Assembly (NCBI RefSeq): GCF_003443615.1
Contig: NZ_CP031967.1
Location: 1,054,001-1,118,000 of the forward strand
DNA from: Alteromonas sp. BL110
GTDB taxonomy: Bacteria; Pseudomonadota; Gammaproteobacteria; Enterobacterales; Alteromonadaceae
Direction of reading: 5' to 3'
DNA: 64,000 nt
In this document: positions 23,909 through 24,814 of the stretch, piece after piece
How positions within the stretch are numbered: the first letter of the stretch is position 1
How the letters are laid out: every line of letters starts with the position of its first letter
The notes under the pieces: model-generated
Seen by the model: the letters and a program-made list of their open reading frames with translations, nothing else
Told to the model about the DNA's origin: nothing
Database searches by the model: none
Position numbers and translations under genes: made by a program

Positions 23909-24745
23909 ATGCAAGCCTCTGAACTACAAAATAAATTTGAGCGCATAAGAGCAAATAAATGGTTTGAAGCCTTTGTTATCAGCGTCATCGTGATATCGGC
24001 GCTATTAGTCGGAGCAAAGACCTACGAACTACCTACCGGCATGTCGTCTATTACGTTGTTTTTAGACTGGTTTATCAGCGCGTTCTTTTTAACTGAAATC
24101 ACCATTCGCTTTTTAGCTGAAAAGCAGAAGCGTTACTTTTTCAAAAGCTTCTGGAACTGGTTTGATACCCTCATTGTAGTTATCAGTCTGATCCCGGCAG
24201 ACGACACTGAACTTGCGCTGATTGCGCGTTTAGTGCGGGTCTTCCGCGTACTTCGTATGATTTCAATTATCCCAGAGCTTCGAATACTACTCGTTTCTCT
24301 AGTGAAAGCTTTGCCCCAACTAGGCTATGTCATGTTGTTGATGTTTATCATTTTCTACATTTACGCAGCTATAGGCAGTACTTTATTCGAAACCATCAAT
24401 CCCGTGTTGTGGGGCGATATCACTATCTCGATGCTAACGCTCTTTAGAATTATGACCTTCGAAGATTGGACCGATGTAATGTACGAGACTCAGGAGGTTT
24501 ACTCGCTAAGCTGGATTTTCTACCTTACCTTTATTTTCTTTACTGCGTTCGCGTTCTTGAACATGGTCATTGGCATTGTGGTAAATGTGATGGAAAGAGA
24601 AAACGAGAAGGCAAGAGCAGAAAAAGAAGCAGCCTTACTTGAAGAGCAAATCGCACAAGGCAATATTGAGCCCACATTGCATGATGTTCTCAAAGAGTTG
24701 CGAGAGCTAAAAGCGCAGGTCGCGTCACAAAATAGTAAACCGTAG
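23909..24745 (+). CDS. voltage-gated cation channel of the NaChBac/NavAb type
   Basis: A single-domain six-helix channel. The voltage sensor S4 has four Arg at every third place (ARLVRVFRVLRM, about residues 105-116). The pore follows with the filter TFEDWTD at residues 183-189 and then S6 (FLNMVIGIVVNVME). A basic/acidic coiled coil of about 45 residues closes the protein (ENEKARAEKEAALLEEQI), as in tetramer-forming bacterial channels. Known BacNav channels carry a filter of the TLESW type and pass sodium; here Asp follows the Glu and another Asp stands three residues later, the positions altered in the calcium-selective NavAb derivative CavAb (TLDDWSD). Calcium permeability is therefore an inference worth testing. 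Confidence 0.9.
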   Translation: MQASELQNKFERIRANKWFEAFVISVIVISALLVGAKTYELPTGMSSITLFLDWFISAFFLTEITIRFLAEKQKRYFFKSFWNWFDTLIVVISLIPADDTELALIARLVRVFRVLRMISIIPELRILLVSLVKALPQLGYVMLLMFIIFYIYAAIGSTLFETINPVLWGDITISMLTLFRIMTFEDWTDVMYETQEVYSLSWIFYLTFIFFTAFAFLNMVIGIVVNVMERENEKARAEKEAALLEEQIAQGNIEPTLHDVLKELRELKAQVASQNSKP

Positions 24746-24779: not shown

Positions 24780-24814
24780 AAAGAAGGCCACAACACAAAG
24801 TGGCCTTCTTTCGT
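24780..24814. terminator. bidirectional terminator between the channel and the TPR lipoprotein
   Basis: AAAGAAGGCCAC-aacacaaa-GTGGCCTTCTTT, a 12-bp stem with T-rich tails on both strands. The two flanking genes converge on it. Confidence 0.88.

Follow-up and report, generated by a model that had tools for sequence, protein, structure and literature searches.

Whether a bacterial voltage-gated channel carrying the acidic selectivity filter TFEDWTD passes Ca2+ or Na+ is the question raised by one gene of Alteromonas sp. BL110, located in the window (the whole stretch of 64,000 nucleotides that was analysed). The first-pass annotation had proposed that this channel may pass Ca2+, as a natural example of what was engineered in CavAb. 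The features considered here are as follows.

23909..24745, + strand: channel gene, 278 aa, a one-domain voltage-gated cation channel of the BacNav superfamily (ORF, PF00520, and fold match)
24227..24256, + strand: S4 arginines Arg107, Arg110, Arg113, and Arg116, every third residue, putative gating charges (present in 148/148 aligned rows)
24419..24454, + strand: P1 pore helix, residues 171-182 (AlphaFold2 model)
24455..24475, + strand: selectivity filter TFEDWTD, residues 183-189 (sequence)
24467..24499, + strand: P2 pore helix, residues 187-197 (AlphaFold2 model)
24509..24655, + strand: long S6 helix continuing into a C-terminal stalk, residues 201-249 (AlphaFold2 model)
24677..24733, + strand: C-terminal helix, residues 257-275 (AlphaFold2 model)
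24780..24811, no strand assigned: terminator-like inverted repeat (in either orientation) separating the channel and TPR-protein genes (region scan)

The gene begins with ATG, and its product matches PF00520 (Ion_trans) over residues 16-235 (1.2e-44). AlphaFold2 was run with 40 sequences (the Alteromonas sp. BL110 channel, 37 named relatives, and two relatives from viral contigs). The best of five single-chain models had a mean pLDDT of 84.9 (65.5-75.6 in the other four) and a pTM of 0.65, with pLDDT values of 93-96 in the blocks of residues 171-200 and 72-89 in the voltage-sensor part. In this model, the site annotated as the filter is a turn flanked by the P1 and P2 helices. TFEDWTD indeed occupies residues 183-189, although the annotated start (24452) was one codon early and took in Met182. 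In a fold search with the model, NavRh (4dxw_B) was the first match, with a TM-score of 0.82 by target length, and later matches included NavMs, NaChBac, CavAb, and NavAb; identity to NaChBac is 39% in the aligned part. The earlier description is upheld in that this is a one-domain voltage-gated channel of bacterial type, with an E-D-W-x-D filter similar to those of channels engineered for Ca2+. Two marks of the BacNav superfamily, namely a single Ion_trans domain with P1-filter-P2 and an S4 arginine repeat with acidic countercharges, are present, and the predicted architecture is what a working BacNav-type channel would show. By analogy with the family, the S4 arginines would serve in gating, and the C-terminal helix is a possible tetramerising coiled coil.

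Animal T-type Ca2+ channels, which stand at the top of the PDB sequence table, were considered as the closest kin and rejected: their best single domain among those listed scores 83.3 bits versus 195.5 for NavRh, and their lead was discounted because the table sums the scores of several domains and NavRh heads the fold search. The second-domain filter of a T-type channel in that table is TQEDW. The first-pass annotation had pointed to the E-D-W order in domain II of eukaryotic calcium channels (TGEDW, the L-type filter).

The genome consists of one contig of 4,458,618 bases, in which two Ion_trans matches and none further were found; the second looks like a K+ channel because it reads TVGYGD. 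A single TrkH was also found in a search, irrelevant to the channel question. Upstream of the channel gene lies an outer-membrane efflux gene (PF02321, OEP/TolC-like), and downstream a converging TPR-protein gene. The terminator-like scan of the region is weak (4 sites vs. a mean of 2.0, sd 1.5, in shuffles), and an Rfam search near the channel gene gave no match. The gene neighbourhood was rejected as a clue to function: of 81 loci, 33-35 carry the OEP/TolC-like, NUDIX, and TPR families, and almost all of these belong to Alteromonadaceae, and among the 18 clusters shown, inspected by eye, no family recurred across the wider set except antisense frames of the channel.

At an E-value of 0.001, 33 of 40 relatives had a match. 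At 1e-20, the genomes with a match numbered 84 of 247 at the level of the order, 98 of 369 for the class, and 127 of 398 for the phylum, these sets overlapping and including the own genome. From among the matches, 40 regions of the order and 100 of the class and phylum were picked for spread and read, together with 14 of the first set of relatives; the total sample comprised 157 relatives and the Alteromonas sp. BL110 channel (158 rows). Among the 138 rows above 155 bits, 122 have Asp at both filter positions 4 and 7 (here Asp186 and Asp189), 12 combine Ser4 with Ser, Thr, Gln, or Asn at position 7, three have Gly4, and one has Asn4; TFEDWTD (91 rows) and TLEDWTD (31 rows) are the commonest filters. 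Below 155 bits, TLESWSM is the commonest (12/20). Thr183, Trp187, the four S4 arginines, Glu63, and Asp86 are invariant in the 148 aligned rows of the branch, Asn218 of the S6 helix is kept in all of them, and Asp186 and Asp189 are found in 129 and 130, respectively. TFEDWTD is thus no chance string, since filter and voltage-sensor residues are conserved across these rows. The filter had been called unusually acidic, which holds against TLESW-type channels but not within its own branch, and the idea that it is peculiar to the Alteromonas sp. BL110 protein was discarded because 122 of the 138 rows share both Asp. Homologues with non-acidic residues at the two Asp positions had been named as evidence against Ca2+ permeation; 122 of the 138 rows keep both, while some combine Ser4 with Ser7 or Thr7 (TFESWTS, TFESWAT).

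Within the genus, all 18 loci of one set (including Alteromonas sp. BL110) have TFEDWTD, and nine more same-genus matches lie outside that set. In a scan of named loci, the best 80 of 578 confirmed comprised 79 with TFEDWTD and one (Vibrio) with TFESWTS, a biased result, as one of the two patterns used spans the filter. The nearest named relative among the matches listed, from which records close to the own genome were possibly left out, is 96% identical and belongs to Alteromonas portus. The genera of the listed named relatives are presumably mostly marine. Eight Pseudoalteromonas replicons of 0.68-0.91 Mb (plasmid records) also carry channel relatives, at about 61% identity.

A quick tree without an outgroup separates a NavAb-like branch (16 rows, 11 of them TLESWSM, support 99) from the 82-row branch of the channel. 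Acidic filters form two branches, one mainly TFEDWTD and the other mainly TLEDWTD, which are not united in the unrooted tree to the exclusion of the NavAb-like rows; the trees were built without NavPp, CavMr, and Bacillus sequences. Two sequences that pair on long branches, L142 (TLSSWET) and L111 (TMSSWEN), have NavRh-like filters with an acid at position 6 and come from genomes of 1.2 and 1.3 Mb. An odd filter, TFDNWAH, was seen at L250:6204-7091 (the same gene as L094), on a bacterial-looking contig of 8.5 kb; by eye, it is directly preceded by a MATE-type efflux gene, with cytochrome c oxidase-type genes some 3 kb off.

The two filter Asp residues change together, with modest support. Asp4 is accompanied by Asp7 in 124 of 124 rows of the 158, and Asp7 occurs in 127 of 158, where the three rows lacking Asp4 have Gly4. 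In a 127-row quick tree, eight independent pairs differ at Asp4 on starred branches, and Asp7 differs in the same way in 7.4 of them on average and in the opposite way in 0 (median p 0.016). The 106-row tree, built without NavAb-like rows, gave seven pairs, of which 6.0 changed the same way, 0 the opposite way, and 1.0 showed no difference (median p 0.031). Both tests rest on quick trees with 45 open forks each and some long branches. Both residues are replaced together on several branches (L029, L044, L046, L093, L133, L135, L136, L150, L048, L049, and L057), yielding TFESWTS, TFESWAT, TLESWTS, TLESWTQ, and TLEGWTQ; the TFESWAT rows have one extra residue in the alignment, and position 7 is non-acidic in either register. 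L029 (TFESWTS) and L030 (TFEDWTD) are sisters with support 82 in the 127-row tree.

Some genomes carry two channels. Seven (G317, G364, G462, G507, G550, G559, and G642) were chosen because, besides an acidic-filter channel, they had another match at 30-37% identity, and in all seven this second copy has TLESWSM. Such a combination fits different roles, possibly with different ions passed. Two acidic-filter copies are present in G038, G097, G318, and G403; those of G097 are divergent and adjacent (L036:1660-2478 on the - strand and L036:2806-3636 on the + strand), both with TFEDWTD, and G170 shows the same divergent neighbouring-copy arrangement.

Channel relatives were also found on three contigs of the IMG/VR collection, while 50,697 named phage records gave zero matches. 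Two of the genes are full length with the S4 arginines:

L239:4959-5792: phage-like channel gene on IMGVR_UViG_3300003086_000114 (97,072 bp)
L243:9553-10404: phage-like channel gene on IMGVR_UViG_3300028177_000028 (26,986 bp)

Their filters are TFEDWTD and TFDNWSE, respectively, and the proteins are 65% identical and form a starred pair within the bacterial branch. The larger contig encodes a phage-family B DNA polymerase, a 5'-3' exonuclease, GTP cyclohydrolase I, and S-adenosylmethionine synthetase, and 5 of its 10 scanned proteins had no PHROGs match; the smaller one has a groEL of a phage family. A groES is found on both, and the two share a gene downstream of the channel (55%). Judged by these genes, the contigs appear to be related and phage-like. 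Against a phage origin stand the lack of matches in the named phage records and a terminase (PF03237) search of the 97 kb and 40 kb viral records, which gave none; a T4-capsid (PF07068) search was uninformative, as it matched nowhere, controls included. Literature searches on these phage-like channel contigs returned nothing evidently related. On the third contig (IMGVR_UViG_2693429859_000001), a TFEDWTD gene (L238:4977-5798) lies at the contig edge, some 630 bases beyond a tail gene whose matches include the central tail fibre J family; because this channel clusters with bacterial rows, it may belong to host DNA flanking a prophage.

Measured channels offer the basis for judging ion preference. 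Shimomura et al. 2020 gathered prokaryotic channels with extra filter acids, named them AnclNavs, and expressed four (PMC7041947). NavPp from Plesiocystis pacifica (TLEDWTD) prefers Na+, with a PCa/PNa of 0.308, and is blocked by Ca2+; its selectivity is modest, and its activation voltage is also shifted by Ca2+ (PMC7041947). The same paper reports that filters making NavAb and NaChBac Ca2+-selective gave NavPp no Ca2+ permeability, and that its TLEDWSD and TLEDWAD versions kept the Ca2+ block or lost inward current (PMC7041947). CavMr from Meiothermus ruber (TLEGWVD), filed in the AnclNav group, is native and Ca2+-selective; Gly4 is needed for this selectivity and also confers it on NavPp, and a Gly4-to-Asp change in CavMr works against it (PMC7041947). 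Channels of Halomonas elongata and Teredinibacter turnerae with NavPp-like filters are described there as giving zero current (PMC7041947). The authors also state that the NavPp filter is identical to the one that Liebeskind et al. 2013 predicted for the BacNav ancestor, in which Asp and Ser are equally probable at position 4 (PMC7041947). Phe at filter position 2 was noted in some BacNav and AnclNav channels by Irie et al. 2023, where the current of NavAb L176F, in a TLESW background, was not reduced by Ca2+ (PMC10349818). In a search of open-licence literature, two papers used the term AnclNav, and none was found that treats the selectivity filter of bacterial sodium channels together with Alteromonas. 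TFEDWTD is TLESW-like with extra negative charges, as in AnclNavs; it is acidic at positions 3, 4, and 7 (Glu185, Asp186, and Asp189), the CavAb-like places, and has Asp186 instead of the Gly4 of CavMr. The channel is a further example of an already known acidic-filter type, and the idea of a first native prokaryotic Ca2+ channel was dropped, CavMr having been reported in 2020.

With slightly better than even confidence, we favour a homotetrameric voltage-gated BacNav-superfamily channel that behaves like NavPp, with Na+ preferred and Ca2+ a minor permeant ion and blocker. Four subunits would build three acidic filter rings from Glu185, Asp186, and Asp189 (12 carboxylates per tetramer), and depolarisation would move the four-arginine S4 and open the pore. 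By analogy with NavPp, Na+ would pass best, Ca2+ would bind in the acidic vestibule and permeate to a small but real extent, and millimolar Ca2+ would block the Na+ current. The absence of Gly4, needed by CavMr, also points this way, and Phe in place of Leu at position 2 is probably minor because NavAb gains no Ca2+ block from L176F, an argument limited by the non-acidic background of that mutant. On the other hand, the behaviour of NavPp may be specific to its scaffold and may not transfer, since similar filters make NavAb and NaChBac Ca2+-selective and the Alteromonas channel is 39% identical to the latter; the currentless Halomonas and Teredinibacter channels also count against it. For this scaffold dependence, it is conceivable, though somewhat unlikely, that the channel is natively Ca2+-selective like CavAb, with Asp186 as an outer Ca2+ site, Glu185 next, and Asp189 lending negative charge to the outer mouth. 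With a single Asp at position 4 of NavAb (TLESWSM to TLEDWSM), the permeability to Ca2+ relative to Na+ rose about 100-fold, and a 2023 review ties Asp at this 'beacon' place to Ca2+-selective channels or to Na+ channels blocked by millimolar Ca2+ (PMC10120453). The mixed channel pairs in seven genomes also suggest different ions, but four genomes hold two acidic copies instead, so that the mixed pair is not universal. The step from filter to natural CavAb taken by the first-pass annotation is not supported by NavPp and its two variants, and the effect of Asp in CavMr also speaks against it (PMC7041947).

It is distinctly unlikely that the pore is a weakly selective cation pathway whose acidic mouth concentrates cations or senses divalents, Ca2+ being more regulator than cargo. 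The modest selectivity and Ca2+-shifted activation of NavPp would fit (PMC7041947), and the joint loss of both Asp in several relatives implies that the pore tolerates it, but their retention in most rows suggests more than a loose mouth. A broader idea, speculative and on the whole unlikely, is that the branch represents an extensive natural collection of voltage-gated channels permeable to Ca2+; its two outer acidic rings would act as one evolutionary switch between Ca2+ and Na+ handling, gained or lost jointly; some genomes would keep both forms, and two related marine-type phages would bring one to hosts. The single Alteromonas gene is by itself an ordinary result. Ca2+ versus Na+ preference has mostly been studied in engineered mutants, while nature offers relatives differing at both outer rings, such as L029 and L030, and such pairs could bear on scaffold versus filter, where NavPp and engineered channels disagree.

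Among known systems, NavPp, compared by filter alone, is likewise a one-domain voltage-gated channel and shares six of seven filter positions and the three acidic rings; its second filter residue is Leu rather than Phe, and its host is a myxobacterium. CavMr, also one-domain, shares Glu3 and Asp7, but has Gly4 and Val6, reported to be needed for Ca2+ selectivity, where the Alteromonas channel has Asp4 and Thr6. The closest solved one-domain structure is NavRh (PDB 4dxw; fold rank 1, 43% identity, 195.5 bits), whose filter TLSSWET is neutral at positions 3 and 4 and acidic at position 6. CavAb (PDB 5klb, TLDDWSD), engineered on the NavAb scaffold and 30% identical, bears acids at the same three positions but has Asp rather than Glu at position 3. 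Canonical NavAb-like BacNavs (TLESWSM) have the same fold and occur beside acidic-filter channels in seven genomes, whereas they are neutral at positions 4 and 7 and form a separate starred branch.
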